Part shown: in pieces, positions 18,808 through 48,330 of the stretch
Layout of the letters: each line of letters begins with the position of its first letter
Position numbering within the stretch: the stretch's first letter is position 1
DNA from: Acetobacterium malicum subsp. dehalogenans DSM 11527
GTDB lineage: Bacteria; Bacillota; Clostridia; Eubacteriales; Eubacteriaceae
Direction: 5' to 3'
Assembly (NCBI RefSeq): GCF_000472665.1
Contig: NZ_AXAC01000024.1
Span: 1-64,000, forward strand
DNA: 64,000 nucleotides
Made by a program: the position numbers and the translations under genes
Notes under the pieces: generated by a model
What the model saw: the letters and a program-made list of their open reading frames with translations, nothing else
The model's database searches: none
Told to the model about the DNA's origin: nothing

Positions 18808-18950
18808 AGACTGTCAAAAAAGATAACCCAGTACCGACAATTGTTACATCATGTTGTACGCATCGGAGCGGACACGGCGAAGCCTGTCCGATTCCGCGGC
18901 GAACAACAGATTCACAATTGGTCGGTACGGTAGTTTAGCGACAACCTCAG
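18808..18950 (+). repeat. interspersed palindromic element, copy 2
   Basis: Core 18831-18928 runs from GTACCGACAATTGTTA to ACAATTGGTCGGTAC. The left tail CAGACTGTCAAAAAAG and right tail GCGACAACCTCAG are shared with copy 7. Nested helices include TTGTACGC/GCGAACAA and CGGACA/TGTCCG. It is inserted between two copies of the rnpB terminator stem. Confidence 0.88.
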
Positions 18951-18975
18951 ACTATTGCAGAGTCCTGCAATAGTC
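18950..18975 (-). repeat. terminator stem, proximal copy
   Basis: GACTATTGCAG-AGTC-CTGCAATAGTC, the same arms as 18780-18805 with a different loop and no T-run of its own because the palindromic element follows directly. Confidence 0.75.
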
Positions 18976-18988
18976 CTTACTTACATTT

Positions 18989-19334
18989 GTGATTTACTAA
19001 ATCTATAAGCCGAGTTCTGTTTAAATAGTCATCTATCTCGATTTATTGTTACCAATAAATTCTAGCGACCTACCATAGGACAACGACGAGCAGCCGTCTT
19101 TCAAGGTCCGTTCTTGGTCTTGCTCCAGGTGGGGTTTACATAGCCGCTGTGTCACCACAACGCTGGTGAGCTCTTACCTCACCCTTTCATCCTTACCATT
19201 GCTGGCGGTATACTTTCTGTTGCACTTGCCTTAGAGTCGCCTCCACCGGGTGTTACCCGGCACCCTGCTCTGAGGAGCTCGGACTTTCCTCAACCGGATT
19301 GCTCCGGGTGCGACTATCTGATTTACTAAATCAC
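18989..19334 (-). ncRNA. rnpB: RNase P RNA
   Basis: About 346 nt on the minus strand with the conserved bacterial RNase P segments: GAGGAAAGTCCGAGCTCC near the 5' end, GGTAAGGATGAAAGGGTGAG, and ACAGAACTCGGCTTATAG near the 3' end. The catalytic RNA trims tRNA 5' leaders. Near-complementary ends (GTGATTTAGTAAATC and GATTTAGTAAATCAC, one mismatch) extend helix P1. Ends are placed by that pairing and by the promoter. Confidence 0.95.
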
Positions 19335-19337
19335 TAT

Positions 19338-19366
19338 AGTATACACTGTCTGCTCTAAAACTTCAA
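19338..19366 (-). promoter_or_regulatory. rnpB promoter
   Basis: Minus-strand TTGAAG (19361-19366), 17-bp spacer, TATACT (19338-19343), placing the start 4-8 bp upstream of the inferred RNA 5' end. Confidence 0.85.
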
Positions 19367-19385
19367 GCCTTTTTTACTGTAACCC

Positions 19386-20504
19386 TTAATAATTCACAAT
19401 AAAATCCCGGGCTGTTTCGGCTACGATCATTTCCGGGCAGGCATCTGCCAGGCCCGCTGTCAGTATTTGCTGGAAGCAGTTGGTTACCCATTTCTCAGTA
19501 CCATAATGGCCGGCATCCAGGACCCAGATGTTGTTTTCCAGGGCCCGTTGCCCGTCGTGGTGCTTGAGATCCCCGGTGATCAGCACATCCGCTCGTTTAG
19601 CTTTGGCCAGACCGATCATGTCCGCTCCAGCGCCGGAACAGATGGCCACCCGCCGGACGATATCCGGCACCTTGCCAGCTCCTCTTAAGGCGACCAGACC
19701 CAGCCGTTCTTTGGTATTGGCAATGAAATCTGCGGCATCCATCGGTTGGCTTAACACCCCAATTTTTCCCAATCCGTTTTCATTGATCAGACCACCGTTT
19801 TCCAGAGCGATGACGTCATAGGCCATTTCTTCATAAGGGTGATTTCTTTTTAACGCAGCAATCAGATTCTTTAAATCCGGTGCAGCGACTATCGCTTCAA
19901 TCCGGTCTTCGGAAACACTGGTCAGTTTATTGAGATCGCCAATAAAAGGTTGGGCCCCCTCAAGCGGACGGAAGGTACCGGTACCGGGCGAGCGATAGGT
20001 GCAATAATCATAATCGCCAATAGCTCCGGCGCCATTTTTCCCCAACACTTCAATGATTTTGGGACTGGCCTCCACCGGGGTAAAAACCACCAGCTTGTAA
20101 TAAGCCGTCGGATTGGAAGGTTCCAGCGTTTTGATCTTTTCGAGACCCATAATCTCGGCCAGATAATGATTAAGTCCTCTTGCGGCCTTATCCAAATTGG
20201 TATGGGCTACATAAACAGCGACATCATTTTTGATTAGCTGGGCAATGATTTGACCCTTTTCCCAGTCGGTGGACAGAGTTTTTAAACCATTGAAAATAAA
20301 TGGGTGATGGGCGATAATCAGGTCCGCCTGCTTCTTAACGGCCTCATCTACCACCTCGGCGGTGATATCCAGAGTTAACAGAATCCGCTTGATAATCTGC
20401 TGACGGGATCCTACCTGAAGACCGACGTTATCCCAGTCTTCGGCCAGTTTTTCGGGAGCATGGGTTTCAATTATTTGGATGATTTGATTTAGTTTGACAG
20501 ACAT
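19386..20504 (-). CDS. Nif3-like dinuclear metal centre protein (YqfO type)
   Basis: 372-aa member of the Nif3/YbgI family with an inserted NGG1p-interacting-factor domain in the middle (about residues 130-235), as in Bacillus YqfO. Metal-ligand motifs are ADLIIAHHPFIFNG near 60-73, YVAHTNLDKA near 98, and the C-terminal DVLITGDLKHHDGQ plus DAGHYGTEK. Its biochemical role is unsettled; it has been linked to GTP cyclohydrolase-type and regulatory functions. It overlaps the end of trmK by 16 bp, and a GAGGTG ribosome-binding site lies inside trmK, so the genes are coupled. Confidence 0.92.
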   Translation of the reverse strand: MSVKLNQIIQIIETHAPEKLAEDWDNVGLQVGSRQQIIKRILLTLDITAEVVDEAVKKQADLIIAHHPFIFNGLKTLSTDWEKGQIIAQLIKNDVAVYVAHTNLDKAARGLNHYLAEIMGLEKIKTLEPSNPTAYYKLVVFTPVEASPKIIEVLGKNGAGAIGDYDYCTYRSPGTGTFRPLEGAQPFIGDLNKLTSVSEDRIEAIVAAPDLKNLIAALKRNHPYEEMAYDVIALENGGLINENGLGKIGVLSQPMDAADFIANTKERLGLVALRGAGKVPDIVRRVAICSGAGADMIGLAKAKRADVLITGDLKHHDGQRALENNIWVLDAGHYGTEKWVTNCFQQILTAGLADACPEMIVAETARDFIVNY

Positions 20505-21190
20505 CTTTTCACCTCATTCAGTTTTTCGATAAACAAACTGCTTTCCTGAAATTGTTTCGCTGCAACCACTGTGGTTTTTCCCCGGGTACTCCTGACAATC
20601 TGCTGCTCCAGAAATATTTTCCGTTCGATCAGCGCTATGAGTAGAGGATGTTTATAGAGATAAAATTCGAAACCCAATTCATATTCCAAGGGATTGGTAA
20701 AAGTCATCGTTCCCGGTTCAGCAACAATTATTTCGTAAACCCGATCCCCCTCACGAGCCAGCTCTTCTCTGATGATGCGAAAACCGGATGCGGCCAGATA
20801 TTTTCGCAGCACTGCCTGATTATTCATCGGCTGGAGCACCAGTTTTTTCTTCTGTCTGGCCACATCTGGCTGGGCTTCCAGCAAGTCCCGGATCAGGAGC
20901 CCCCCCATGCCAGCCATGACGACGGCGTCAACCTCTCCGGGTTTAAGCACAGAGAGACCCGAACCAAGTCGGGTCTCTATCTGTTTTTCCAATTGCTGTT
21001 CACTGATAATTATTTCAGCTTTTTTAAGCGGCTGCTGGTTGGTATCACTGGCGATTGCCCGGGAAACCAAATTGTTTCCGACCAGGTACACCGGTAGATA
21101 ACCATGGTCGGTACCAATATCGGCCATGGACTTTACTCCAGCCACACAGCTGGCAATCACTTCAAGCCTTGGACTTAACTTAATCTTCAT
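20489..21190 (-). CDS. trmK: tRNA (adenine(22)-N1)-methyltransferase
   Basis: 233-aa SAM-dependent enzyme that methylates A22 in the D-loop of tRNA. The N-terminal LSPRLEVIASCV is followed by the SAM motif MADIGTDHGYLPVYLV (about 22-37), then AIASDTNQQPLKKAE and the catalytic-loop region DAVVMAGMGGLLIRDLL. Its start follows the rpoD stop by one base. The dnaG-rpoD-trmK-nif3 order is conserved in Bacillota. Confidence 0.93.
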   Translation of the reverse strand: MKIKLSPRLEVIASCVAGVKSMADIGTDHGYLPVYLVGNNLVSRAIASDTNQQPLKKAEIIISEQQLEKQIETRLGSGLSVLKPGEVDAVVMAGMGGLLIRDLLEAQPDVARQKKKLVLQPMNNQAVLRKYLAASGFRIIREELAREGDRVYEIIVAEPGTMTFTNPLEYELGFEFYLYKHPLLIALIERKIFLEQQIVRSTRGKTTVVAAKQFQESSLFIEKLNEVKRCLSN

Positions 21191-21191
21191 T

Positions 21192-22343
21192 TTAGGTTAA
21201 ATAATCCTTTAATTTCTTGCTGCGGCTGGGATGTCTCAGTTTGCGTAAGGCCTTCGCTTCAATTTGTCTTATTCGTTCGCGGGTGACATTGAATTCTTTG
21301 CCGACTTCTTCCAACGTCCGAGCCCGGCCATCATCTAAACCAAAACGCAATCGCAGAACCTTTTCTTCCCGTTCGGTCAGGGTGTTCAAGACCTCAATCA
21401 GCTGTTCTTTCAGCAATGCATAAGAGGCGGCTTCGGCTGGTGCCGGAGCATCTTCATCAGGAATGAAATCACCCAAATGGCTGTCTTCTTCTTCCCCGAT
21501 TGGTGTTTCCAGAGAAACCGGATCCTGAGCAATTTTCTGTATTTCGCGAACCTTTTCTTCCGAGAAGCCCATTTCCTTACCAATTTCGGCTGGGGTCGGT
21601 TCCCGTCCATATTCCTGTAACAATTGCCGGGAAACCCGGATCAGTTTATTAATGGTCTCGACCATATGCACCGGAATCCGGATCGTTCTGGCTTGATCGG
21701 CAATGGCCCGGGTAATCGCCTGGCGAATCCACCAGGTGGCGTAGGTACTGAATTTAAAACCTTTTGTATAGTCGAATTTCTCAACCGCCTTGATCAAACC
21801 CAGGTTTCCTTCCTGGATCAGATCCAGAAATGACATTCCCCGCCCCACATAACGCTTGGCAATACTGACGACCAGACGGAGGTTGGCTTCGGCCAATTCT
21901 TTTTTGGCGGAATCGTCGCCAGCTTCCATCCGACGGGCCAGAGCCATTTCTTCATCACCGGTTAATAAGGGGACCTTACCGATTTCTTTGAGGTATAAAC
22001 GAACCGGGTCATTGACACTGACCGAATCTGCCAGCTCAATTTCCTTCTGGTTTTCTTCCTCAAGCTCCGCGGCCTCCAGAGCTTCCAGTTCGAGATCGGT
22101 AAAGGCAATTTCGATCCCTTCCTTTTGCAGGTATAAATAGATTGAATCAATTTCTTCGGGATCAAGATCCGCCTTATCCAGAATTTCTTCAAAATCGTGG
22201 TTATTTAAATTCCCTTTTGATTTTCCGCGTTTTAACAGCTGCTGCACTTCTGGCATCAGCTCAATTGCGACTTTTTCAATTTCAATGATGTCGTCGTCAA
22301 TATCGATGATCACATCGTCGGTTTTTGCTTTCTCTAGTTTCAT
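21192..22343 (-). CDS. rpoD: primary sigma factor sigma-70/sigma-A
   Basis: 383-aa housekeeping sigma factor that directs RNA polymerase to the TTGACA/TATAAT promoters seen across this window. An acidic N-terminal region 1.1 (about 1-90) precedes region 1.2 ([16 protein letters not shown]), region 2 ([43 protein letters not shown]), region 3 and region 4 ([20 protein letters not shown]). It has a GGGAGG ribosome-binding site and lies one base after the dnaG stop. Confidence 0.98.
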
Positions 22344-22344
22344 T

Positions 22345-24123
22345 TTAGTGCCTCCCGTTTTCTTTCATCATTTTCTTAATCTCTATGAATTGATTGGTGA
22401 GCCGTGCCACCTCATCGTCGTTACCATTGGTTGATTCTCTTTTTATTTGTTCAGAAAGTCGGTCAAGCTGAGCTTCATTATAAAAACGATTCATTATTTC
22501 CAAAGCATCTTGATAATCTGACCGGGAGACTTCATCCTCGTTCATCATAAACTCAACTATTTTTTTGACTTCTTCTGAATCTTCAAAATGTGACATAATC
22601 TGATTGACTTCAAACCTGATCCCTGTTTTGCGCTTGTCTGAAAGGGTCCTGAGTAAATCTTTATAAAAAGGATCGGTCAGATAGTCCATCGGAAACTCAT
22701 CGATGATGTCGGGTGTTTTTAAACAAAAGCGAATCGCTAATTCTTGGGCTTTTTTATATGCCCTGGGAATTTTTAGCGGGGCGGCTTCGCTGGGGGGTAG
22801 CTCCACCAGCTGGGAAGAATTGTCGGATCGGGTTTTTGAACGCAAAACTTCGCGCCGGATCACTTCCTGATTAATTCCCGTTTCACCGGCAACTATTTTG
22901 CTGTAATAATCAATTTCTACCGATGTCTCCAGCTGTCGCAATACTTTGATTGCCTCATTGCCATAGCGGAGCCGGCCATCAGTTTGGGACAGATCGTTGT
23001 GACTTTTTAGTAACTCCAGCTCATACTCAACAATCGTTAAAGCCTTGGCAACAAAATCCTTAAAGCCCTGCTGGCCATACTTCTGGACAAAGGAATCGGG
23101 ATCCTCATTTATCGGCAAGTTTAATATTTTAACATTTAAGCTAGTTTTTTTCAAGATATTCATGGCTTTTTCAGTTGCCGATTTCCCCGCGCTATCTCCA
23201 TCAAAGGCAATAATCACTTCGCTGGCATAGCGTTCCAGGATTTTTCCATGAAACGGGGTAAAGGCCGTACCCAACGCAGCCACGGTATTCTTGATCCCTT
23301 TTTCATACAAGGAGATCACATCCATATAGCCTTCAACAATAAATAAACGCCCTTCTTCCAAAAAGTTTTTGCAGTGATTCAAATTATAGAGCTCATAACT
23401 TTTAGAAAAAATAGGGGTTTCTGGGGAATTAAGATATTTGGGCCCATTTTGTCCGGCTGCCATCAAGCGACCACCGAAGCCGACAATCTGGCCCCGGGGA
23501 TTAACGATCGGAAACATAATCCGGCTGCGGAACCGATCATAATGTCGTTTCTTTTCCGAAGCCAGAATCAGACCTGAATCCAGCATTTCCGTCATCGTAA
23601 AGCCTTTGGTGTTAAGGAAATCGGTTAATCGACTCCAGTCTTCACTGGCATAACCCACCCCAAATTCCCGGATCGTTTCCTGACTGATCCCTCGCTGCAG
23701 CAGATATTCCCGGGCTGGTCGCTCTGTTTTTAAAACTTTGTAATAGTAATTCGCCGCTTCCCGGTGCATTTCATACAGGCGTTTCTTTTTTTCGTAAGCC
23801 TGATGATCTTCCTGTTGGTTCTGCTTTTCCGGCAAAACCATATTTACCCGAGCTGCCAGAAATTTGAGTGCGTCGACAAAAGGCAGTTTTTCCATTTCCA
23901 TAACAAAGGTAATTACATTGCCGCCCGCTCCGCAGCCAAAACAATGATATAACTGTTTTTCTCGGGAAACCGTGAACGATGCCGTTTTTTCATTATGAAA
24001 CGGACATTTACCTTTGAAAGAATTACCCACCCGTTTTAAGGTCATGTAACCCGAAGCGATATCCACAATATCATTTGCCTCAATGACAGATTGTATCAAT
24101 TCTTCGGAGTAGTAATTTGTCAT
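22345..24123 (-). CDS. dnaG: DNA primase
   Basis: 592-aa primase that makes RNA primers at the replication fork. The N-terminal zinc ribbon has Cys40, His43, Cys61 and Cys64 ([19 protein letters not shown]). The RNA polymerase/TOPRIM core includes FGGRLM, the acidic [10 protein letters not shown] and [16 protein letters not shown], and a helical C-terminal domain binds the replicative helicase. It is first of the macromolecular-synthesis operon dnaG-rpoD-trmK-nif3, with an AAGGA ribosome-binding site. Confidence 0.97.
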
Positions 24124-24262
24124 TTGTTTTTTCCTTTTTTATAAAGTCTTGACTTTTGAGGGTCTATTAACTCTATTCTAAATAAAATTCAATTCTCCTT
24201 TTTTTAATATCCTTTATTTTCAAATTTAAACAAAAATAAAGTTTCATTAATCTTTCAAAATA

Positions 24263-24279
24263 TTATCAACAGTGGATAA
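24263..24279. promoter_or_regulatory. paired DnaA-box-like motifs upstream of dnaG
   Basis: TTATCAACAGTGGATAA holds TTATCAACA on the plus strand and TTATCCACT on the minus strand, each one mismatch from TTATCCACA, in a compact inverted arrangement in the divergent spacer between dnaG and the 85-aa gene. It could be chance in AT-rich DNA. Confidence 0.3.
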
Positions 24280-24341
24280 TATTTAATTATTGGGGTATTT
24301 AAAAACTAATAACACTATTTTTAAAAGAAAGAGGTATTTTT

Positions 24342-24599
24342 ATGGAAAAGAAAAAAGTTATTGAAGTCATTCATGAAAAAGTGAAAGTTGCCAATTTTGA
24401 TGATCATGGAAAAGCTGTTCTCAACATGGATGACGTCGGCGACGGCCAAGTGATTATGGATGTGCTTGAAGAATTGAAATCAGATACAAGCTTCGATTTT
24501 GATTTTGACTTGGACAAAATGTTATTAACCGTTCATAATCCTGATGATGATCTGGACGGATTTGCCAGAAGACACCCATCTCCCCAAAAATGTAAATAG
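24342..24599 (+). CDS. small acidic protein of unknown function
   Basis: 85 aa, strongly acidic in the middle (DFDFDFDLDKM), ending in a basic, Cys-containing tail (RRHPSPQKCK). No family recognised and no signal peptide or membrane segment. AAAGAGG stands eight bases before the ATG, and a strong terminator follows at 24644, so it is a believable single-gene unit divergent from dnaG. Confidence 0.7.
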   Translation: MEKKKVIEVIHEKVKVANFDDHGKAVLNMDDVGDGQVIMDVLEELKSDTSFDFDFDLDKMLLTVHNPDDDLDGFARRHPSPQKCK

Positions 24600-24643
24600 A
24601 ATTGACCCAAAAACCCTATCTAGCGGTTAATAAACGAACTAAA

Positions 24644-24675
24644 AGCTCCATTGGACTAGACCAATGGAGCTTTTT
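24644..24675. terminator. terminator after the 85-aa gene
   Basis: Perfect 11-bp arms AGCTCCATTGG/CCAATGGAGCT followed by TTTTT on the plus strand. A4 on the other side makes weaker minus-strand use possible. Confidence 0.9.
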
Positions 24676-24691
24676 CTGTGATTAAACGTCA

Positions 24692-24713
24692 GAGAAACCC
24701 CGCAGGGTTTCTC
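24692..24713 (-). terminator. hairpin downstream of pyruvate:ferredoxin oxidoreductase
   Basis: Perfect arms GAGAAACCC/GGGTTTCTC with a 4-nt loop, 16 bp after the stop codon, but with only a poor T-run on the minus strand. It may work together with the next hairpin. Confidence 0.55.
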
Positions 24714-24728
24714 CGCTTATAGATTAAA

Positions 24729-28316
<3,588 letters not shown>

Positions 28317-28323
28317 CTATGAA

Positions 28324-28356
28324 ATTATATCATATTAGTTTTTGAGTGTATACACT
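28324..28356 (-). promoter_or_regulatory. promoter and palindromic operator of the pyruvate:ferredoxin oxidoreductase gene
   Basis: Minus-strand TATAAT at 28324-28329. A perfect 12-bp palindrome AGTGTATACACT at 28345-28356 covers the -35 position (TATACA), suggesting a repressor or activator site. The regulator is unknown. Confidence 0.5.
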
Positions 28357-28505
28357 TTAATAAGGGTAATTTTTTGCTGCTATTTTCCGGCAATTTTTAA
28401 CTTGTTTACCCGAAAACGATTAACGTTATACTTTTTTATGATTTATATTTCTTTTAAATGGATAAGATAGTTTGTTCGAGAACTTTTATTCACGCAAACT
28501 ACTTT

Positions 28506-28576
28506 TTCACAATAATTCACTGCGGATGAACTGTTAAAATGTTTAATAACAGTTCATCAACAGTAATTTTTGTGAA
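28506..28576. repeat. 71-bp two-tier palindrome
   Basis: Inner perfect 12-bp arms GATGAACTGTTA/TAACAGTTCATC (28525-28536, 28547-28558) are enclosed by an outer imperfect stem TTCACAATAATTCACTG / CAGTAATTTTTGTGAA. No T-run follows, so it is not a standard terminator. It lies between the symporter stop and the oxidoreductase promoter. The remaining DNA between 28254 and 28615 shows nothing else but AT-rich sequence. Confidence 0.65.
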
Positions 28577-28615
28577 GTAATAACTTTTTTTATTTTTTTT
28601 ATTGCTCAAAAATCA

Positions 28616-30040
28616 TCATTTCTTTTTAGCTTCTTTAAAAGCCAGCTTTTCTGGGATTAAAAAATCTGACTGGAATTCGAAACATTCCTTGGCTACCACA
28701 CTGCTTAAGACGAGCAGACTGATCAAGTTTGGAATGGCCATCATCCCGTTCATGGCATCTGATAAATTCCAGACGATTTCCAGCGCGGTGGTGGCACCAA
28801 CAAAAACAACCAGACAATAGAGGATCCGGTAGATGGTTACAGCGATCGGCGCTTTGATTAAGTATTCCAGTGACTTTTCACCATAGTATTCCCAACCCAG
28901 TATCGTTGAAAAGGCAAAAAGGGTAATTCCAACAGTGACAATATAACCGCCAACAGGTCCTAATGCTGATTGGAAAGCAGCAATGGTAAGATTTGCACCC
29001 ATCAAAATTTCACCACTGGCATCCAATGTTCCCAACACCCCTGACGAGGCAATTACCAGACCCGTAATCGTACAGACAACGATGGTATCAAAGAAGGTTC
29101 CAGTCATATTGATATAACCTTGTCGTGACGGATGATCAGTTTTTGCCGCTGCGGCAGCAATTGGCGCCGAGCCTAAACCGGCTTCATTTGAGAATACGCC
29201 CCGGGCCACACCCCAACGCATGGCTGTCAGCATCGTCGCAATAATGGTTCCGCCAACACCGCCAGCCATTGCCGTCGGCGAAAAGGCCATCGTAAAGATT
29301 TCAGCGATACCAGCTGGTAAATTTTCAAAATTGATGATAATAACTACAATTGAAGCCAAAACATAGAAAACAGCCATAAAAGGTACGATTACGCCGGATA
29401 CCTTCCCAATACTCTTGATGCCGCCGAGAATAACCATAAATGCCAGAACCATCAGAATCAGTCCGGTTATCCAGGTCGGTACCCCAAAGGTACCATTCAC
29501 TGCTCCAGCAATGGAGTTGGCTTGGGTCATGTTCCCGATTCCAAAGGATGCCACCGTGGCAAACAATGAAAATAAGAACGCCAGAGTCAAGCCGATTTTT
29601 TTATTTTTGAAGCCATTTTTCATGGCATACATCGGTCCGCCGGCCATTTCGCCTTTAGCATTGGTTTCCCGGTATTTAACGGCCAGAACACTTTCGGCAT
29701 ATTTGGTCGATAATCCAAACAGGGCTGAAATCCACATCCACACCAGGGCTCCTGGCCCCCCCAGCACCATCGCCGTTGCGACACCGACGATATTCCCGGT
29801 TCCAATGGTGGCCGCCAGGGCTGTCATCAGCGATTGGAATGGTGAAATATCACCACTGGAATCGTCTTTGTGGGTCTTGTCCTGCTTAGCAAAGACCGAT
29901 TTTAGCGCATAGCCCAGGTTGAGCCATGGCTTGAATTTTAAACGCACGGTTAAGAACATACCTGTCCCCATTAGCAGTGCCAGCATAACGGGTCCCCAAA
30001 CAAAATTATTTACAGCTGAAATGATCTCCGAAAAATTCAT
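28616..30040 (-). CDS. sodium:alanine symporter (AGCS family)
   Basis: 474-aa integral membrane protein with about 11 helices that imports alanine with Na+. The signature loops IGTGNIVGVATAMVLGGPGALVWMW and AKYRETNAKGEMAGGPMY-type segments are present, as is RGVFSNEAGLGSAPIAAA. An AAGGGGG ribosome-binding site precedes the ATG. It follows alanine dehydrogenase in the same direction with a 210-bp gap that holds a long hairpin, so lrp, ald and the symporter are likely one alanine-use unit. Confidence 0.94.
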   Translation of the reverse strand: MNFSEIISAVNNFVWGPVMLALLMGTGMFLTVRLKFKPWLNLGYALKSVFAKQDKTHKDDSSGDISPFQSLMTALAATIGTGNIVGVATAMVLGGPGALVWMWISALFGLSTKYAESVLAVKYRETNAKGEMAGGPMYAMKNGFKNKKIGLTLAFLFSLFATVASFGIGNMTQANSIAGAVNGTFGVPTWITGLILMVLAFMVILGGIKSIGKVSGVIVPFMAVFYVLASIVVIIINFENLPAGIAEIFTMAFSPTAMAGGVGGTIIATMLTAMRWGVARGVFSNEAGLGSAPIAAAAAKTDHPSRQGYINMTGTFFDTIVVCTITGLVIASSGVLGTLDASGEILMGANLTIAAFQSALGPVGGYIVTVGITLFAFSTILGWEYYGEKSLEYLIKAPIAVTIYRILYCLVVFVGATTALEIVWNLSDAMNGMMAIPNLISLLVLSSVVAKECFEFQSDFLIPEKLAFKEAKKK

Positions 30041-30097
30041 ATTGCCCCCTTAAAATTATAAGCTTTGTTATCGATTACAGTTTTGTTTCAAATCTTC

Positions 30098-30147
30098 TGA
30101 TAATAAGGGCTTCACCATTATCTGTAACAGTGTCACCCTTACTATCA
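30098..30147 (-). promoter_or_regulatory. intercistronic hairpin between ald and the symporter gene
   Basis: Arms TGATAATAAGGG and CCCTTACTATCA (one mismatch) enclose 26 nt. No T-run on the minus strand, so processing or mRNA stabilisation is more likely than termination. The rest of the 210-bp gap is AT-rich with no gene. Confidence 0.45.
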
Positions 30148-30250
30148 GTTATCTAGAGCTAAATTTTATGTCTTTTTTTTCGTTTCTTTATTTCTCAATG
30201 CTGATGATTAAAATTTTCGTTTCCGGGTTGATTAAAATTAATTCTTAAAC

Positions 30251-36325: not shown

Positions 36326-36367
36326 TAAAAAAACTGAAATCAGCCTGGGCCGATTTCAGTTTTTTTA
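36326..36367. terminator. bidirectional terminator
   Basis: Arms AAACTGAAATC/GATTTCAGTTT (36331-36341, 36352-36362) flanked by A- and T-runs on both sides. It serves the LiaF-like gene and the convergent pgi. Confidence 0.9.
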
Positions 36368-36406
36368 TGGACAAATTTATTAAGTTCAATAAGGTACTTG
36401 AAATCT

Positions 36407-37744: not shown

Positions 37745-37791
37745 AATTTTTACCTTCTTTCTTACTACTTTTTTAACATGTTAAGATAATT

Positions 37792-37919
37792 CAAAAAGAT
37801 AACCCAGTACCGACAATTGTTACATCATGTTGTATGCATCAAGGCGGACACGGCGATAGCGTGTCCGAGCTTGCAGCATACAACGGATTAACAATTGGTC
37901 GGTACGGTAGTTTAGCGAC
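37792..37919 (+). repeat. interspersed palindromic element, copy 3
   Basis: Core 37807-37905. It shows the clearest compensatory changes: the middle helix is TTGTATGC/GCATACAA and the next is CAAG/CTTG, where other copies have CGGA/TCCG. The apical stem CGGACACG/CGTGTCCG is perfect. It lies in the divergent spacer between pgi and the aldo/keto reductase gene. Confidence 0.87.
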
Positions 37920-38101
37920 GATAGTACTTTCAGTCTATTTTCATTTTACACCATTAGTGATTCGAGTGTCAATTGATGTTCGCCCCTCAATCTGAAAGAA
38001 AGTTGAAATTCAGTGAATCTTCTGACCAATCCCTCATAAGAGGTGACTTTTTTTATTCGATATGTTAAAATAAGCAAAATCAAGTAAAGAAGAGGTGTAA
38101 A
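37920..38101 (+). other. upstream region of the aldo/keto reductase
   Basis: AT-rich sequence with a possible -10 TTAAAAT near 38064 and an AAGAGGTG ribosome-binding site at about 38090-38097. No other feature seen. Confidence 0.4.
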
Positions 38102-39121
38102 ATGGAAACGCGAATACTGGGAAAAACCGGATTAGAAGTGTCCCTTATTGGGTTTGGTGGTATTCCAATTCAACGCTGTAACCAATGGGAAGTCGACGAA
38201 ATTGTTGAAAATCTTATTGAAGAAGGAGTTAATTTCATTGACACTGCCAGAGCTTACACCAATAGTGAAGAAATGATTGGGGAAGCCCTGAAACAGTGGG
38301 GCCGGGAACATTTTTATCTGGCCACTAAGACCCCCAAGCTCAGTTATGACGAGGTCATGGCTGATGTTAAAACCAGTCTGGCTGAATTACAGACTGCTAC
38401 CATTGATTTATATCAGTTCCATAATGCCAAAACCATGGCTGCCTACGAAACCATAATGGGCCCAGGTGGCGGTTATGAAGCATTAGTCGAATGTAAAAAG
38501 CAGGGATTGATTAACCATATCGGCATTACCTCCCACAGTTATGAGGTGTTGGACCGGGCTCTGGATGAAGATAAATTCGAAACCATTCAATTTCCATATA
38601 ATATTGTTGAAAATCGAGGAGCACCCCTCTTTGAAAAAGCCAAACAAAAAAATGTCGGTGTCATTATTATGAAACCGCTGGCCGGCGGGGCTTTTATCCA
38701 CGCCAACTTCGCCCTGCGATGGGTCGCCGAAAATCCCAATATTTCGGTCCTGATTCCTGGCATGGATTCTGTTAAGCAGGTGTTGAAAAACACCAAAGTC
38801 GGCAATGACTTCGTGCCTTTGTCTGATGACGAACGCCAGACCCTGGAAGCCGATGCTAAAGCACTTGGTAAAACCTTCTGCCGCCGCTGCGGCTATTGTG
38901 CGCCCTGTCCCCAGGGAATTGATATCCCAATGCAATTTATTGTCGAGGGTTATTACCGCCGCTACGATCTGGAAGAATGGGCACTGGACCGCTATCGCAG
39001 TTTTGCCGCCAATGCCTCTGATTGTGTCCAATGTGGCGAATGCGAACCCCGCTGTCCTTACAATCTGCCGATCCGGGAGATGCTGAAAAAAACCCGGGAA
39101 CTGTTTGATCCGCTGGTATAA
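38102..39121 (+). CDS. aldo/keto reductase with C-terminal 4Fe-4S domain
   Basis: 339 aa: an AKR barrel (catalytic-type DTARAYTNSEEMIG near 48; KTPKLS; MKPLAGGAF) followed by a ferredoxin-like tail with two cysteine clusters, CRRCGYCAPCP (about 260-270) and CVQCGECEPRCPYN (about 301-314), for two [4Fe-4S] centres. Fe-S AKRs of anaerobes are thought to couple carbonyl reduction to ferredoxin; the substrate is unknown. Monocistronic, with its own terminator. Confidence 0.93.
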   Translation: METRILGKTGLEVSLIGFGGIPIQRCNQWEVDEIVENLIEEGVNFIDTARAYTNSEEMIGEALKQWGREHFYLATKTPKLSYDEVMADVKTSLAELQTATIDLYQFHNAKTMAAYETIMGPGGGYEALVECKKQGLINHIGITSHSYEVLDRALDEDKFETIQFPYNIVENRGAPLFEKAKQKNVGVIIMKPLAGGAFIHANFALRWVAENPNISVLIPGMDSVKQVLKNTKVGNDFVPLSDDERQTLEADAKALGKTFCRRCGYCAPCPQGIDIPMQFIVEGYYRRYDLEEWALDRYRSFAANASDCVQCGECEPRCPYNLPIREMLKKTRELFDPLV

Positions 39122-39131
39122 AAAGTTAACT

Positions 39132-39175
39132 AAAAAGGCCAGTATCCTTTTCTTTCGATTAGGATGCTGGCCTTT
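39132..39175. terminator. terminator between convergent genes
   Basis: Long hairpin AAAGGCCAG.ATCCT / AGGAT.CTGGCCTTT with flanking A- and T-runs. It serves the aldo/keto reductase and gldA. Confidence 0.88.
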
Positions 39176-39193
39176 AATATTTTACATATAGTC

Positions 39194-40291
39194 TTAGTCA
39201 CACAGATACAGACGGCCCAGCGCATCAGCTGCCATAATAGCGGCATAAACGGTGTCAGCGTCGACATCAAATGGCATGTTATGAATAGTTTCGCCAGGAT
39301 CGGCAGCCGCTACTGCCACCGCCATGATTTTTTCCGGGGTTGGTTCGGTACAGCCCAATTCGCCCAGAGTAATTGGCAGGCCAACTGATAGACAGAAATC
39401 AATCACTTCTTCGATATCTTCCATGGATCGGTTTTCCATCACCAACTGAACCAGGGTTCCAAAAGCTACTTTTTCGCCGTGATACATATGGTGGCATTCA
39501 GATAATACAGTTAAGCCGTTATGGATGGCATGACAGGCCGCCAGACCGCCACTTTCAAAACCAACGCCACTGAGGTAGGTATTGGCTTCAATAACATTTT
39601 CAACCGCTGGCGTACAGGTAGCTGCTTCGACGGCCAACTTAGCTTTTAAGCCGTCTTCGATTAAAATATCATAACATAATCGTGCCAGAGCCAACGCCGA
39701 TCGGGTTGGATGAGCGCCTGACATCGTGGTTCCGTTAGAATCTACCGTCGCCTGAGCTTCAAAATAGGTAGCCAAAGCATCGCCCATCCCAGCCACAAAT
39801 AATCTGGCCGGAGCCGCTTTGATAATGTCGGTATCCATCACCACAATTTCAGGATTTTTAGGCAGGACTAAATACTCATCAAAAACACCGTCTTCGGTGT
39901 AGATAACCGATAAAGCCGAGCAGGGCGCATCGGTGGATGCGATGGATGGTGCAATCACAACCGGCAGTTTTTCATAGTGAGCGGTAGCTTTGGCGGTATC
40001 CAAAGTTTTTCCGCCACCGATACCAACAACCACGTCGCAACCTTCCGCTTTGACGATTTCCTGCAACCGGGCGATTTCGACCTTTGAGCATTCGCCGTTA
40101 AATTTTTCGGGTGTAAATTTAATTCCCGCCGCTTCAAAACTGGCTTTCAATTCGTCCGCTTTGGTCCGCATCATGGTTCCGCTCATCAATACCAACGCAG
40201 ATGTTCCAAATTTTCCTACATGTTCCGGTAATTTACCAACTTCTCCGGCACCTTGAACATAACGGCTGGGAGACATAATTATTTTTTGCAT
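39194..40291 (-). CDS. gldA: glycerol dehydrogenase
   Basis: 365-aa iron-type/zinc-dependent alcohol dehydrogenase fold: nucleotide site VVVGIGGGKTLDTAKATAHY near 87, STDAPCSALSVIY, metal ligands including Asp in VAGMGDALATYFEA and His in HAIHNGLTVL and HHMYHGEKVAFG. It oxidises glycerol to dihydroxyacetone with NAD. CGGAGG before the ATG. Monocistronic. Confidence 0.95.
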   Translation of the reverse strand: MQKIIMSPSRYVQGAGEVGKLPEHVGKFGTSALVLMSGTMMRTKADELKASFEAAGIKFTPEKFNGECSKVEIARLQEIVKAEGCDVVVGIGGGKTLDTAKATAHYEKLPVVIAPSIASTDAPCSALSVIYTEDGVFDEYLVLPKNPEIVVMDTDIIKAAPARLFVAGMGDALATYFEAQATVDSNGTTMSGAHPTRSALALARLCYDILIEDGLKAKLAVEAATCTPAVENVIEANTYLSGVGFESGGLAACHAIHNGLTVLSECHHMYHGEKVAFGTLVQLVMENRSMEDIEEVIDFCLSVGLPITLGELGCTEPTPEKIMAVAVAAADPGETIHNMPFDVDADTVYAAIMAADALGRLYLCD

Positions 40292-40490
40292 TTTCTACCT
40301 CCGAAAATAAATTTATTTCGTTATTATTATATCAAATAATCGAAACGATGAATTCGTTATCATCTGAAAAATACAGTCCAGAGTAGATACTATTCTCGTA
40401 AATATTTTGTTATTTTTACAAACCCTTAATGAAATCAGTAATTTTTTGTTCCATTCTATAACTATTTCAATTAATCCATCTGTGAATAGA

Positions 40491-40522
40491 AAAAGCGCCC
40501 AACTTATAAGTTGGGCGCTTTA
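40491..40522. terminator. terminator downstream of clpB
   Basis: Perfect arms AAAGCGCCCAACTT/AAGTTGGGCGCTTT with a short loop; the minus-strand side ends TTTTTC. The adjoining 40292-40490 DNA is AT-rich promoter-side DNA of gldA without other features. Confidence 0.9.
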
Positions 40523-40533
40523 AAATTCTAAGT

Positions 40534-43137
<2,604 letters not shown>

Positions 43138-43220
43138 AATTGTACCTCGTTTTTAAATATAATTAGATTTCATTTTTTTTGTTTTGTTAGTATCATAAAC
43201 ACATTTTCAAGATAAACGCA

Positions 43221-43318
43221 GTACCGACAATTATTACATCATGTTGTTTGCATCGGGGCGAACACGGCGTAGCCTGTCCGATCCAGCAGCAAACAACAGA
43301 TTAATAATTGGTCGGTAC
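43221..43318 (+). repeat. interspersed palindromic element, copy 4
   Basis: Core from GTACCGACAATTATTA to TAATAATTGGTCGGTAC. The outer helix carries a compensated G-to-A/C-to-T pair relative to other copies, and the middle helix is TTGTTTGC/GCAAACAA. It lies between clpB and the RHH gene. Tails are more divergent than in copies 2 and 7. Confidence 0.87.
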
Positions 43319-43350
43319 GGTATTTGAGCACTAGCCTTACGTTTGTGTAA

Positions 43351-44004
43351 CTAATCGGGATTGTTTTTCTTGTAATCCTCCCGATAAATGGTTTCCAGGA
43401 CGTTGAGCAGATCGTTTGCTTCTGCTTCATCGACTTTCGAAAAATAAACATTCATGGCCCGGTCGATCATTTTTAAGTAACGGGTCAGGTTATCAGTGAC
43501 GGTTTCGATGTCCTGGGTCAACTCACCTTCATCTTCAAAGGCTCGGACAAATTTGTGATTGGTCAGATTTTCTGCTAAATCTCCATGATCCGCTCGCTGA
43601 TCTTTTTCGATACCGGCTATCAGCTTGAAAAATTCATCAAAATGATCATTCAGATTTTCAGATTTAGTTCGGGAACTGATTTTCAGCACCGCATATTTAC
43701 CCCGCTTGCTACTGATAAATTCGTAACTGTAGCGCACCTTGGGCCGATACTTGTATTTGAGGCTTTTGCCAAATTGAATACTGGAATTCTTATTAATCTG
43801 GCTCACCGACAGGGTGTCACTGAAATTTTCATCCAGCTGTTCAAGAATTTTTTGGATTTTCTGTTCCGGTGTTACCAGCCCGATTTTTTCAGCCAATATA
43901 TCATTGATCAATTGGGAGCGGTTCGTATTATTTTCATAAGCAATCTGGTCTATTTTTTCAACTATCTCATCGAATAGCATTAAACTGTATACACTTTTTA
44001 TCAT
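43351..44004 (-). CDS. ribbon-helix-helix-like protein of unknown function
   Basis: 217 aa. Residues about 1-42 (SVYSLMLFDEIVEKIDQIA, then ENNTNRSQLINDIL) look like a ribbon-helix-helix DNA-binding domain. The rest (TPEQKIQKILEQLDENF onward) is alpha-helical, acidic and matches no family I know. AAGGAGTGATG precedes the ATG. No toxin partner adjoins it. Monocistronic, downstream of the pyrophosphatase and upstream of clpB. Confidence 0.65.
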   Translation of the reverse strand: MIKSVYSLMLFDEIVEKIDQIAYENNTNRSQLINDILAEKIGLVTPEQKIQKILEQLDENFSDTLSVSQINKNSSIQFGKSLKYKYRPKVRYSYEFISSKRGKYAVLKISSRTKSENLNDHFDEFFKLIAGIEKDQRADHGDLAENLTNHKFVRAFEDEGELTQDIETVTDNLTRYLKMIDRAMNVYFSKVDEAEANDLLNVLETIYREDYKKNNPD

Positions 44005-44175
44005 ATCATCACTCCTTTTATATAAATTATAATTCTATAATATTATTCAGTCAACCATTTTATATATATTGCATCGCATTTTATATTTGAACTCAGATTT
44101 ATTTAAGTTTTTGATAAAGCCCTTTTGATTACTGGATACCCGATTTTTGCCGGCCTAATCTCAACCCCAACGACA

Positions 44176-44211
44176 AAAAGAGACCTGAATGCCGCGTGTG
44201 CATTCAGGTCT
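44176..44211 (-). terminator. terminator of the pyrophosphatase gene
   Basis: Hairpin AGACCTGAATGC/GCATTCAGGTCT; on the minus strand it is followed by CTTTTTG. The rest of the 44005-44274 spacer is AT-rich. Confidence 0.85.
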
Positions 44212-44274
44212 TTCTGCATAAATTAATTTAATTATTTTATTAAATCAAATTAAACTAAATGATTAAAACTCTAC

Positions 44275-46245
44275 TTAGATTAAGAACAATGGCGCAAATA
44301 CCAATGATACGATGGTCATCAGTTTGATCAGAATATTAATAGAAGGTCCGGAAGTATCCTTGAAGGGATCACCAACGGTATCGCCGACAACGGCCGCTTT
44401 ATGGGCATCACTGCCTTTTCCGCCATGAGCACCGCCTTCAATGAATTTTTTGGCATTATCCCAGGCACCACCGGCATTTGCCATAAAGATGGCCATTAAT
44501 ACCCCGGTAACCAGAGCACCTGCTAAAAGTCCACCCAGTGCATCAGCACCAAGAATCAGACCCATTGCTAAAGGAGCAACAACTGCCATTAAACCAGGAA
44601 CGATCATTTGACGGAGCGCTGCAGCGGTAGAAATATCCACGCATTTGGCATAATCCGGTTTTTGCGTGCCTTCCATAATTCCTGGGAATTCCCGGAATTG
44701 ACGACGCACTTCTTCGATCATTTCATTAGCCGCAGAACCAACTGCTTCCATGGTTAAGGCTGAGAACAGGAATGGTAACATCCCACCGATAAACATCCCG
44801 ATGATAACGTTAGGATTTAAGATATCAATACTATCCAGACCAACAACTTCAGCATAAGATGCAAATAAAGCTAAAGCAGTTAAAGCCGCAGAACCAATCG
44901 CAAAACCTTTACCGATGGCTGCGGTGGTGTTACCAACGGCATCCAACTTATCAGTGATTTCACGGACTTCTTTAGGCATTTCTGCCATTTCAGCAATTCC
45001 GCCAGCGTTATCGGCAATTGGGCCGTAAGCATCTACCGCAATGGTCATTCCACAGGTAGAAAGCATCCCAACTGCTGCTAAAGCAATACCAAAAAGGCCA
45101 AAAGCTGCGTAAGCAACAAAAATTGCTACTGACATCGCTAAAATTGGGAACATGGTTGATTTCATCCCGACAGCCAAACCGCTGATAATTGTGGTTGCGG
45201 CACCGGTTTCTGATTGCTGGGCAATGTGTTGAACCGGTTTATAATGTTCTGAAGTATAGTACTCCGTTAATTTACCAATAACAATCCCGACTGCCAAACC
45301 GGCCACAATCGCAATAAATGCCGAATATCCGCCAGTAAAGTAGTTAGACAGGAAGAAAGAAGCAATCACAACCAGAATACCGCTGACATAGGTTCCCATG
45401 TCCAGCGCGCGTTGCGGGTTTGAACCTTCTTTACCACGAACAAAGAAAGATCCGATGATTGAGGCAAAAATACCCACTGCTGCTAAAAGCATTGGGAATA
45501 AGATCCCATCATAACCATCAAGAACAAGTACGCCTAAGGTAATGGCTGAGATTATTGAACCAACATAAGACTCGAATAAATCCGAACCCATACCGGCAAC
45601 ATCGCCAACGTTGTCACCAACGTTATCAGCGATAACAGCAGGATTACGCGGATCATCTTCAGGAATACCGGCTTCAACTTTACCAACCAGGTCAGCTCCA
45701 ACATCAGCAGCTTTGGTGTAGATCCCGCCACCAACACGACCGAACAGCGCAATCGAAGATGCACCCAGACCAAAACCAGTTACAATGGTAACATCACCAA
45801 ATAATAAGTACAGGACACTGACGCCCAGCAAACCCAGACCAACAACACACATACCCATAACCGCGCCGCCGGAAAAAGCCACTGAAAGTGCTTTGTTCAT
45901 TCCGCTTTGCTGAGCTGCATTAGCCGTTCTGACGTTGGCTTTAGTCGCAACCTGCATACCGAAAAATCCGGCCAGGATTGAAAAAATAGCCCCAACCAGG
46001 AAACATATTGCGGTTGTTAAGCCTAAACCAGGTGTAACGGTTAAAATAACAAATAAGACAGCCACAAAGATTGCGATCATTTTATATTCACGTTTTAAGA
46101 ATGCCATGGCACCTTCGTGGATATATCCCGCGATTTCTTTCATTCTGTCTGTACCGGCGTCAACTGCAGTTACGCGTTTTGCAAAAATAAGCGCAACAAG
46201 CAACGCCACGACTCCAATAGCTGGAGCCAGAAACAATAATTCCAT
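44275..46245 (-). CDS. hppA: membrane-bound ion-translocating pyrophosphatase
   Basis: 656 aa, about 16 membrane helices, coupling PPi hydrolysis to cation export. Catalytic loops: [38 protein letters not shown] and the C-terminal [15 protein letters not shown]. The [10 protein letters not shown] segment (Ala in place of Lys) marks the K+-dependent subfamily, which includes all known Na+-pumping forms. Na+ transport, as in Acetobacterium, is inferred. The start at 46245 is preferred because AGGGGG lies eight bases upstream; the TTG two codons earlier is too close. It stands alone between secG and its own terminator. Confidence 0.96.
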
Positions 46246-46294
46246 TCTCAATTTCCCCCTGTAAGTTTTTGCATCTCTCTAATTCAGATGCCTG

Positions 46295-46525
46295 TTATGA
46301 TACGATTGAATAAACGAATGCCGACAACATGAATAAAACGCCTGAGATTTTAGTTGCTTTTTCTAAAACACCTTCAAATCCCTTTGCTTTTTTCTTTCCA
46401 AATAAGGTCTCAGCACCACCTGCGATGGCTCCTGACATCCCTGCTGTTTTTCCCGGCGACAAAAGTATCGCGGCAACAAGAACTAGGCTGGAAATTATTA
46501 AAACGACCAGTAAAGCTTCTTTCAT
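46295..46525 (-). CDS. secG: preprotein translocase subunit SecG
   Basis: 76-aa subunit of the Sec channel with two membrane helices (about 4-24 and 52-72) and the conserved glycine-rich loop LLSPGKTAGMSGAIAGGAETLFGKK between them. The ATG at 46525 follows GGAGGTG; the upstream in-frame GTG is part of that ribosome-binding site. It stands at the tail of the glycolytic gene run, as in many clostridia, but a terminator separates it from gpmI. Confidence 0.93.
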   Translation of the reverse strand: MKEALLVVLIISSLVLVAAILLSPGKTAGMSGAIAGGAETLFGKKKAKGFEGVLEKATKISGVLFMLSAFVYSIVS

Positions 46526-46590
46526 TAGTATCACCTCCGTAAATAATCGTGCACGTTATAATATCATAACCAAAAAACATTTTCAATCAT

Positions 46591-46613
46591 AAAAAAAGTC
46601 TCGATGGAGACTT
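46591..46613 (-). terminator. terminator of the glycolytic operon
   Basis: Minus-strand hairpin AAGTCTC-CATC-GAGACTT followed by TTTTTTT, about 40 bp after the gpmI stop. Confidence 0.93.
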
Positions 46614-46650
46614 TTCCTATGTAAACGGTCACAGTTTTTGTATTTTTGCT

Positions 46651-48186
46651 TTATTCACCCTTAATCAACGTTTCACCTGTCATTTCGACCGGTTTGGGCA
46701 GTCCCATCAGCTCCAGCAAAGTGGGGGCTACATCGGCCAGACGGCCATCATCTCTCAGCGTCACATTGCCATCACCAAGGAGAATGCATTTGACCTGGTT
46801 GGAGGTATGGGCGGTAAAAGGCATATGGGTTTCGTAATCGATCATTTTTTCGGCATTGCCATGATCGGCTGTAACAATCACCTTGCCACCTTTTGCCAGA
46901 ATAGCGGTGATGACTTTTTTAGCACACGCATCGACCACCTGAACAGCTTGCTCGGCTGCTTCGAAAATGCCGGTGTGGCCGACCATATCGGCATTGGCAA
47001 AATTAAGGATCATCAGCTGATATTTGTCACTTTCAACGGCGGCGACAGCTTTATCAGCCACCTCATAAGCACTCATCTCCGGCTGTAAATCATAGGTTGC
47101 CACGTGGGGCGAGGGTACCAGAATCCTGTCTTCCATGGGGTATTGCTTTTCTAGTCCACCATTAAAGAAGTAGGTCACGTGGGCATACTTTTCGGTTTCA
47201 GCAATCCGCAGTTGAGGGATACCCAGATTACTGAGATATTCGCCCAGAGTGTTGTCGATAGTCACCGGTTTATAGGCAATTGCGACATTTTCAAAGGATT
47301 TATCATATTGCGTCATCGTCACAAAATTTAAACCTAAAAAACCAGTTTTTCGTTCGAATTCCTTAAACTCAGGATCGATAAAAGCTCGCGTTAATTCCCT
47401 GGCCCGGTCGGGACGGAAATTAAAAAAGATTATTGTGTCATTTGACTTGATCGCTTTATCTTCGGCCGTATCGATGATGGTTGGCAGCACGAATTCATCG
47501 GTAATTTTAGCCGCATAGGTTTCTTCCATAACTTGCAGGGCCGACGCGGCATGATTGCCGGCACCCATTGTCATGGCATCATAGGCTTTTTCAACCCGAT
47601 CCCAACGGTTGTCACGATCCATGGCATAGTAACGTCCCATGACGGTGGCGATTTTCCCCACTCCCAGTTGCGCCATTTTAGCTTCCAAAGATCTGATGTG
47701 ACCAATCCCGCTATCAGGAGCGGTATCCCGGCCATCCATCAGACAATGGACATAGACCCGTTTTAAGCCCTGTTTTTTAGCCAAGTTCAGTAACGCGTAA
47801 AGATGGCATTCATGGCTGTGAACACCGCCATCGGACAATAAGCCCATCAGGTGCAGGGCGCCGTCATTTTCCTTAGCTGAACGAATCCCCGCCAGAAAGG
47901 CCAGGTTGGTAAAAAAATCGCCATCTTCGATGGATTTAGTAATCCGGGTCAGCTCCTGATAGACGATCCGGCCAGCCCCCAGATTTAAATGGCCAACCTC
48001 GGAATTGCCCATCTGACCTTCGGGCAGGCCAACACCAAGGCCACTGGCGGTAATCAGAGTATGGGGATTGTCCTGTGAAATGGCATCAAGAAACGGTGTT
48101 TGGGCCTGTTCAACGGCATTGCCCTCGGTACATCTGGTAAAGCCGTAGCCATCCAGAATAATCAGGGCAGTTAAATTTTTATTCAT
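46651..48186 (-). CDS. gpmI: 2,3-bisphosphoglycerate-independent phosphoglycerate mutase
   Basis: 511-aa Mn-dependent enzyme interconverting 3- and 2-phosphoglycerate. The alkaline-phosphatase-type domain has metal ligands in LIILDGYGF and TADHGNAEKM, and the phosphoserine is in MGNSEVGHLNLGAGRIVYQ. The central transferase domain has HCLMDGRDTAP and RYYAMDRDNRWDRV. The ATG at 48186 is used; an earlier TTG would enclose the GAAAGGTG ribosome-binding site. Last gene of the cggR-gap-pgk-tpi-gpmI run. Confidence 0.97.
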   Translation of the reverse strand: MNKNLTALIILDGYGFTRCTEGNAVEQAQTPFLDAISQDNPHTLITASGLGVGLPEGQMGNSEVGHLNLGAGRIVYQELTRITKSIEDGDFFTNLAFLAGIRSAKENDGALHLMGLLSDGGVHSHECHLYALLNLAKKQGLKRVYVHCLMDGRDTAPDSGIGHIRSLEAKMAQLGVGKIATVMGRYYAMDRDNRWDRVEKAYDAMTMGAGNHAASALQVMEETYAAKITDEFVLPTIIDTAEDKAIKSNDTIIFFNFRPDRARELTRAFIDPEFKEFERKTGFLGLNFVTMTQYDKSFENVAIAYKPVTIDNTLGEYLSNLGIPQLRIAETEKYAHVTYFFNGGLEKQYPMEDRILVPSPHVATYDLQPEMSAYEVADKAVAAVESDKYQLMILNFANADMVGHTGIFEAAEQAVQVVDACAKKVITAILAKGGKVIVTADHGNAEKMIDYETHMPFTAHTSNQVKCILLGDGNVTLRDDGRLADVAPTLLELMGLPKPVEMTGETLIKGE

Positions 48187-48232
48187 ATGATCACACCTTT
48201 CGGTCAAAATATTTTAGGCTATTGTGAGAACC

Positions 48233-48330
48233 GTACCGACCAATTGTTAATCTGTTGTTCGCCGCGGCATCGGACAGGCTTTGCCGTGTCCGCTCCGATG
48301 CGTACAACATGATGTAACAATTGTCGGTAC
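48233..48330 (-). repeat. interspersed palindromic element, copy 5
   Basis: Complete short-form core in reverse orientation in the gpmI-tpiA gap. It keeps all helices, with CGGACACGGC and GCCTGTCCG at the apex. The tails found in copies 2 and 7 are missing. Confidence 0.88.

Follow-up and report, generated by a model that had tools for sequence, protein, structure and literature searches.

Paired base changes in a hairpin-targeting mobile palindrome of Acetobacterium probably reflect, in large part, replacement of whole tips

When copies of a DNA repeat differ by changes that keep their helices paired, has a fold been selected? The question is raised by a stretch of 64,000 nucleotides (nt) from Acetobacterium malicum subsp. 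dehalogenans DSM 11527 (contig NZ_AXAC01000024.1, positions 1 to 64,000; hereafter the window), in which a palindromic repeat occurs several times with compensatory differences between its copies. Covariation is the standard proof of folded-RNA function, and an earlier note on this DNA took the paired differences in three helices to mean that the folded form, RNA or cruciform DNA, has been selected or is templated during copying. Here the paired changes appear in blocks among dispersed mobile copies, and the same insertion sites can be read in several species. The explanation that we hold to be probable, with considerable room for doubt, is that the element is a non-autonomous miniature inverted-repeat transposable element (MITE) moved by an IS1182 transposase and targeted to hairpins, and that the paired changes near its tip stem largely from replacement of the whole tip at fixed sites. 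The observation made in the window stands; a selected fold does not follow from it.

A left-arm pattern with at most three mismatches gave 104 matches in the genome to which the window belongs (G000; 4.05 Mb), 49 and 55 per orientation, and the same pattern read backwards gave none there. A total of 103 paired copies were extracted from G000, counting fetched loci and the window, which fall by size into remnants (56-77 nt, 4 copies), short cores (98-102 nt, 55), cores of 130-153 nt (6) and long cores (182-192 nt, 38). The core is a quasi-palindrome of 27-nt outer arms, a middle helix (GTNNGC/GCNNAC), a four-pair helix (CGGA/TCCG) and an inner hairpin, to which long copies add two further hairpins in a branched tip. 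Fold stability was 7.8-10.4 standard deviations above shuffles in eight folds (four copies, both strands). One long copy (L108) contains a run of N. Seven copies lie in the window, three of them (8406, 54537 and 50542) outside the range given in the earlier note, and these copies and their adjoining features are as follows:

18807-18948, plus strand: complete short element, with the left end CAGACTGTCAAAAAAG at 18807, the core at 18831-18929 and the right end up to 18948.
18864-18896, plus strand: helix CGGA/TCCG of copy 18831 and, enclosed by it, the inner hairpin.
18779-18806, no strand assigned: left copy of the duplicated terminator hairpin (target-site duplication); a single hairpin stands there in L225, L227, L228 and L237.
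18949-18976, no strand assigned: right copy of the duplicated terminator hairpin.
37807-37906, plus strand: short copy with the TTGTATGC/GCATACAA and CAAG/CTTG variants.
43221-43319, plus strand: short copy with the AATTATTA/TAATAATT and TTGTTTGC/GCAAACAA variants.
48232-48330, minus strand: short copy whose core is identical to that of copy L040 elsewhere in G000.
8406-8594, minus strand: long copy with a 189-nt core and three inner hairpins, with a sub-threshold match to Rfam family RF01699 at 8434-8533 (minus strand).
50542-50597, minus strand: degenerate 56-nt copy without an interior (remnant).
54537-54724, plus strand: long copy with a 188-nt core, its left end CAGACTGTCAAAAAAG at 54513.
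54494-54512, no strand assigned: hairpin duplicate left of the 54537 copy.
54745-54763, no strand assigned: hairpin duplicate right of the 54537 copy.

The three paired differences that prompted the earlier note are exact. The outer helix reads AATTGTTA (37815-37822) with TAACAATT (37889-37896) in one copy and AATTATTA (43229-43236) with TAATAATT (43302-43309) in another; the middle helix of the same two copies reads TTGTATGC (37830-37837) with GCATACAA (37876-37883) and TTGTTTGC (43244-43251) with GCAAACAA (43289-43296); and the next helix is CGGA (18864-18867) with TCCG (18893-18896) in copy 18831 and CAAG (37840-37843) with CTTG (37870-37873) in copy 37807. Imperfections that had not been listed are a right arm of TCACAATT instead of TAACAATT in copy 18831, an A.A mismatch within the middle helix (133 of 198 arm pairs) and a third helix of CGGG against CCAG, with one mismatch, in copy 43221. 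A table of arm pairs, for which 198 of 218 copies were used and 20 dropped, shows outer arms that are nearly invariant, the variable pairs being 28/r7 (AA 133, TA 20, AT 18, CG 7, GC 6), 29/r6 (CG 147, TA 42) and 13/r20 (GC 185, AT 6). Further in, 124 distinct short copies vary at pairs 35/68 (GC 84, AT 32), 36/67 (GC 101, AT 20) and 37/66 (AT 77, GC 40).

How such differences come about can be read from copies that occupy the same insertion site. Matching of flanks on both sides gave 101 same-site pairs, one of them within G000, and a non-redundant set of 57, all between different genomes, with a mean flank identity of 89.9%. Among the 57, pairs with weak flanks (72-80%) may be paralogous; these were excluded from a strict set of 30 pairs, none within G000, having at least 85% identity over 120 nt on each side and conserved element ends. 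The two members of a pair belonged to different length classes in 31 of the 57 non-redundant pairs, and their lengths differed by more than 10 nt in 16 of the 30 strict pairs. In the clearest case, L144 versus L090 (G000), the flanks, the unusual ends and the outer arms match, and the middle helix, the four-pair helix and the hairpin of the interior all differ together. Nine strict pairs join two short copies, and in these the inner helix pairs show 9 double versus 2 one-sided differences and the outer pairs 0 double and 5 one-sided differences. The nine inner doubles are confined to three of the nine comparisons (5, 3 and 1), i.e. they come in blocks. At the site of copy 43221 the long copy L346 (G011) carries the two unusual 43221 variants, which are therefore old at that site, where the inner module differs. 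From these alignments we infer that tips have been replaced as blocks, with borders in the homologous arms on both sides. Since the interior changes over as a unit, pairs included, the case for selection on pairing is weakened, and because the paired changes seem in large part to move with whole swapped tips they are weak evidence for a functional RNA. Of the claim that the folded form is selected or templated, the paired change is thus real, and it is the step from there to selection for pairing that loses force.

Exchange of tips as units would also be seen if an IS1182-type transposition swapped a target stem-loop for a mobile one, with resident tips as the targets, and a passage on IS1272 in PMC5678879 proposes that the target inverted repeat is replaced. 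The block borders, however, are variable and lie inside the homologous arms, where no transposon ends were seen by eye, and homologous conversion fits them better; we give replacement by transposition very little credence.

The earlier note had advised a covariation test on a larger alignment. Co-changes on the same branch were counted by Fitch parsimony on a FastTree tree, the control being a partner column slid by 1-3. For the short form, 124 distinct copies gave 24 such co-changes on helix pairs (22 of them Watson-Crick to Watson-Crick) versus 0-4 in the slid controls, and 46 copies of the long form gave 16 (16 Watson-Crick to Watson-Crick) versus 0-2; the helix pairs behind both counts were mostly chosen by RNAalifold from the same alignments, a choice that leans to covarying pairs. 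Later counts of the long form were limited to the 187-193 nt class, because, with variants of 180-186 nt included (100 distinct long copies in all), RNAalifold gave a consensus with almost no structure. With pairs taken from a plain consensus fold, 83 distinct long copies gave 44 co-changes (39 Watson-Crick to Watson-Crick) versus 5-17, slid counts that take in all kinds of co-change. A G-test with a stricter tree null left no pair under E 0.05 and was on that ground rejected as stand-alone proof of covariation; its best pairs (E 0.083, 0.133 and 0.6) are the top three of all column pairs, and a Poisson version of the test reached a best E of 0.14. The paired changes on the larger alignments therefore exceed chance as a set, relative to slid controls, and not pair by pair, and as evidence of covariation beyond relatedness the set is confounded by the exchange of blocks.

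Paired changes can arise without selection by template switching within a palindrome, through which one arm is copied from the other as the DNA replicates, a known mechanism (PMC8794818). Few intermediates are seen at pair 29/76 (88 CG, 34 TA, 1 CA, 1 CC) and at pair 36/67 (101 GC, 20 AT, 2 TT, 1 GT), and 3 of 275 copies of at least 90 nt have lost the extra G of the right arm, so that the right arm equals the left. Yet the same process should erase the differences between left and right, namely the bulges and the A.A pair, whereas the large majority of copies retain them, and the exchange of a whole module at a fixed site is left unexplained by it. Arm-to-arm copying is in our judgement an unlikely source of the paired changes.

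Selection could instead act on a DNA hairpin or cruciform, if the transposase needs the folded element and the source copies keep their pairing by compensating mutations. The target is itself a hairpin, and a model for IS1272 in one part of PMC5678879 has the transposase act at the feet of stem-loops. On the short tree there are 6 double changes in the outer arm as well, and one-sided changes of the outer stem to G-T and to A-C are equal (13:13 and 16:18), as DNA predicts. Outer arms are also 5-fold less diverged than flanks: over 46 same-site pairs (11 of the 57 were dropped for this table) divergence is 2.1% in the outer arms and 10.0% in the flanks, and the arms are lower in 46 of 46. The inner-arm value over these pairs (14.8%), like the one-sided counts at pairs 28-30, is inflated by copies with an extra left-arm hairpin, and removal of such copies leaves 38 pairs with an inner-arm divergence of 8.8% and an outer-arm divergence of 2.0%. 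Resident copies, on the other hand, do not restore pairing, as shown by 37 one-sided versus 2 double outer-arm differences at the 46 shared sites (summed over 25 outer pairs); nor does the commonest form lose its A.A mismatch in the middle helix, and conserved bulges persist in the arms. Selection for pairing in the DNA is a doubtful alternative in our view, albeit one to be taken seriously.

Judged by its sequence, the element is an IS1182-type MITE. Well-preserved copies reach past the core, with CAGACTGTCAAAAAAGATAACCCA on the left and GTAGTTTATCGACAACCTC on the right, and stand between direct duplications of a hairpin. The left end CAGACTGTCAAAAAAG matches, at 16 of 16 positions, one end of three insertion sequences (ISs) that came from a PF13751 search of the genus (L302, L304 and L305) and whose ends are CAGACTGTCAAAAAAG and CAGACTGTCAAAGAAC. 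L305 has the only unbroken gene of the three; its protein scores 362.5 bits against NCBIfam IS1182 (NF033551; cut-off 270), and identity to it is 92% for L390 and 79% for L391. Each of L304 and L305 is bracketed by a duplicated hairpin, and the hairpins of L302 are more diverged. Direct repeats with a score of at least 20 were found in the flanks of 23 of 102 copies of the element versus 0.5% of random flank pairs, and by eye these repeats are hairpins in most cases. For IS1272 and the IS1182 family, sections of PMC5678879 give a stem-loop as the target, and one model there duplicates it. The assignment is made because of the shared end, the duplicated hairpins and the fit with that account. 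Two PF13751 (IS1182-type) genes of G000 were rejected as the partner, as their ends differ from the left end of the element; a search of G000 with the L305 protein matched only these two, weakly. Other IS1182-type ISs (L124, L125, L303 and L316) have ends such as GGGGCTGTCGGGAAAT, and some adjoin palindromes. On contig C25 of G000 (L120:2675-2696 and flanks) the left end CAGACTGTCAAAAAAGATAACC stands alone between two hairpin copies and is a remnant from deletion or excision. The two flanking hairpins of one element sometimes differ by changes that preserve pairing (L060 and L119).

The rnpB terminator provides an empty site, with a lone hairpin in L225, L227, L228 and L237, while the window and L222 have two hairpins flanking the element; the same terminator is occupied by other forms of it in four other genomes (L223, L224, L226 and L230). 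Upstream of this terminator, L225 has a different palindromic element (ACAATTTTGTA ... TACAGTGTAAAAATTGTT), the inner hairpin of which resembles that of the MITE (GGCGAACAG..CTGTCCGCC), hinting at tip sharing between families. Some copies (L046, L048 and L053) seemingly lie within another palindromic repeat with ACAATTTTGTA ends, i.e. as nested insertions, and copies of ~205-210 nt have an extra small palindrome of type GGGGTCTGACCCC or GACCTAGGGGTCAGATCC in an arm (L141, L182, L192, L217, L227, L258 and L331, plus others). Among 128 copies examined for placement, 29 lay in convergent and 7 in divergent gaps, against a baseline of 61:53; gene orientation came from a crude open reading frame caller, by which 12 of the 128 overlapped a reading frame. 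The left arm was found in 17 of 19 Acetobacterium genomes and in 0 of 48 other genomes of the order, and 18 of the 19 have the long form's right half. Acetobacterium records dominate among the matches listed in a scan of named genomes, which also include several metagenome-assembled genomes titled Firmicutes or Bacillota that are grouped with the genus. A pattern match in a record titled Bacteroidetes bacterium, a metagenome-assembled genome (L206), may be a misbinned contig or a transfer. In a literature query naming Acetobacterium, the genus name was absent from the papers among the matches listed.

These observations can be joined into a mechanism. An IS1182-family transposase would move the element and insert it at hairpins, mainly intrinsic terminators, as the ends, target, flanks and empty site suggest, and insertion would duplicate the target hairpin on both sides. 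The body is a long quasi-palindrome with nearly invariant outer arms and a variable tip, existing in short, long and other forms. That the whole tip is replaced by another form at a fixed site is shown by comparing same-site copies of different species. For this the extruded hairpin may break at its tip; SbcCD is the usual nuclease candidate for such a break. Repair could follow by gene conversion from one of ~100 other copies via the shared arms, and conversion is probably centred on the dyad, so that paired changes would move as blocks. The few isolated paired changes of the outer arm, G-C to A-T at pair 13/20 for instance, can only be due to compensating mutation or template switching.

A number of points weigh against this explanation. 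Few independent sites show block exchange of paired changes, and differences in length may simply be deletions, although the junction is common to seven of nine short members except for its last base. Low divergence of the outer arms could be explained by purifying selection instead of homogenisation. Likeness among paralogues speaks for the explanation, since 33 of 37 G000 copies, and 14 of 18 within one length class, are closer to their nearest paralogue than to the orthologue, but this comparison is biased by taking the minimum over ~100 paralogues. On the side of transposition, the right end of the element (GAGGTTGTCGATAAA) agrees with the other IS end at 9 of 15 positions by hand count, a transposase with CAGACTGTC ends was not found in G000, most copies are without a recognisable duplication, and G014 has the IS in broken form yet no copy of the element.

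An RNA encoded by the element is not supported. If it were a structured RNA, its long form related to the Rfam family Clostridiales-1 (RF01699), its pairs would be kept by selection on the transcript, and several observations point that way. Of the two strands, the plus strand gives the better fold in 43 of the 46 long copies and in 122 of the 140 short ones. RF01699 matches the long copy in the window at 24.4 bits (E 0.0018; gathering score 48) and 5 of 15 further long-copy loci at 23.3-32.7 bits (E 0.16 to 0.00047), every match being on the plus strand of the element. In reverse, when 29 long copies were used to model the inner hairpins, the model gave four weak matches (E 0.35-0.95) in 40 loci, all on true Clostridiales-1 sites and representing three distinct copies, as L282 and L297 overlap. 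Changes to G-U exceeded changes to A-C by 34:11 in a first count, with pairs picked by RNAalifold, which tends to omit pairs with A-C, and by 50:28 in inner hairpins with pairs from the consensus fold (P 0.017 vs 1:1). That ratio, however, is not beyond the 74:57 of unpaired columns (P 0.31). Split by origin, it is 25:11 in G000 (P 0.029 vs 1:1) and 29:23 in other genomes, and unpaired columns give 28:17 and 57:32, respectively. A strand-specific RNA constraint was rejected on these counts. Nor is the element biased in orientation to tandem genes (40 copies with, 52 against), and the short form is without a Clostridiales-1-like part, yet it is the commoner form in G000 (55 short and 38 long of 103); the copies are moreover numerous, mobile and lineage-specific. 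Known Rfam RNAs in the copies were rejected at gathering scores, a scan of the window returning only RNase P, 16S rRNA and tRNA; the element never reached the 48 bits of RF01699 (best 32.7 bits), and with strict filters at E <= 0.001 the family was found in 0 of 19 Acetobacterium genomes. We consider selection on a transcript distinctly unlikely. The alternative of RNA or cruciform DNA offered in the earlier note thus lacks support for its first member, with no orientation bias and no robust G-U excess, and keeps cruciform DNA and templating in modified form, because the DNA hairpin matters for the insertion site.

Common descent of two inner hairpins with Clostridiales-1 is possible from their distant likeness in sequence. 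The family is listed as probably RNA and probably not cis-regulatory in a part of PMC2864571. It is multi-copy in some relatives, partly in tandem, with 29 matches in G061, and among 15 loci printed 4 start, by eye, directly behind a hairpin with a T-run. The loci L281-L300 (G031, G032, G040, G048-G051, G061 and G062) include tandem arrays, in places directly behind terminators, and Clostridiales-1 looks mobile in these relatives, which are of the same taxonomic family and order. We therefore put forward, as a tentative thought that may well fail, that a mobile palindrome with an exchangeable tip cassette gives textbook covariation with little or no selection for pairing, and that the tip of the long form is related to Clostridiales-1, in which case that family would be a structured mobile DNA beside terminators and not an RNA gene.

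The element lends itself to testing how strongly covariation screens are misled by repeat families; it also connects a MITE with an IS1182 partner and that partner's hairpin target, and offers a clue to what an unexplained Rfam family may be. It resembles the IS1182 family, e.g. IS1272, and L302, L304 and L305 in its left end, identical over 16 nt to those of the latter three, and in a hairpin target that is duplicated on both sides (L304 and L305), and differs in having no transposase gene, a body that is a folded palindrome of 100-190 nt and a diverged right end. For IS1272 a passage of PMC5678879 reports replacement of the hairpin, whereas the target of the element is duplicated. With RF01699 the long form appears to have in common the order of two hairpins, a GCUUGC loop, a CCCGC linker and a GAAAGnAGC/GCGGAUUUC internal loop; unlike that family, it scores below the gathering score, is without the third Clostridiales-1 hairpin and is closed by another outer helix. 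ERIC, RUP, BOX and Correia are bacterial MITEs or intergenic repeats that are short, non-coding, inverted-repeat and mostly intergenic. The element, likewise short, non-coding and inverted-repeat, present in ~100 copies and mostly intergenic, differs from them in its terminator hairpin target, its duplication of 20-30 nt and its several interchangeable interiors. Yeast mitochondrial GC clusters, mobile palindromes that merge and shuffle according to part of PMC4478555, are alike in being mobile palindromes but are unrelated in sequence, belong to another genome and are without an IS1182 partner. As a MITE the element is ordinary in kind; unusual are its hairpin target with duplication and an identified IS1182-type partner, tips that are interchanged while the site stays fixed, and a possible connection with the unexplained Rfam family.

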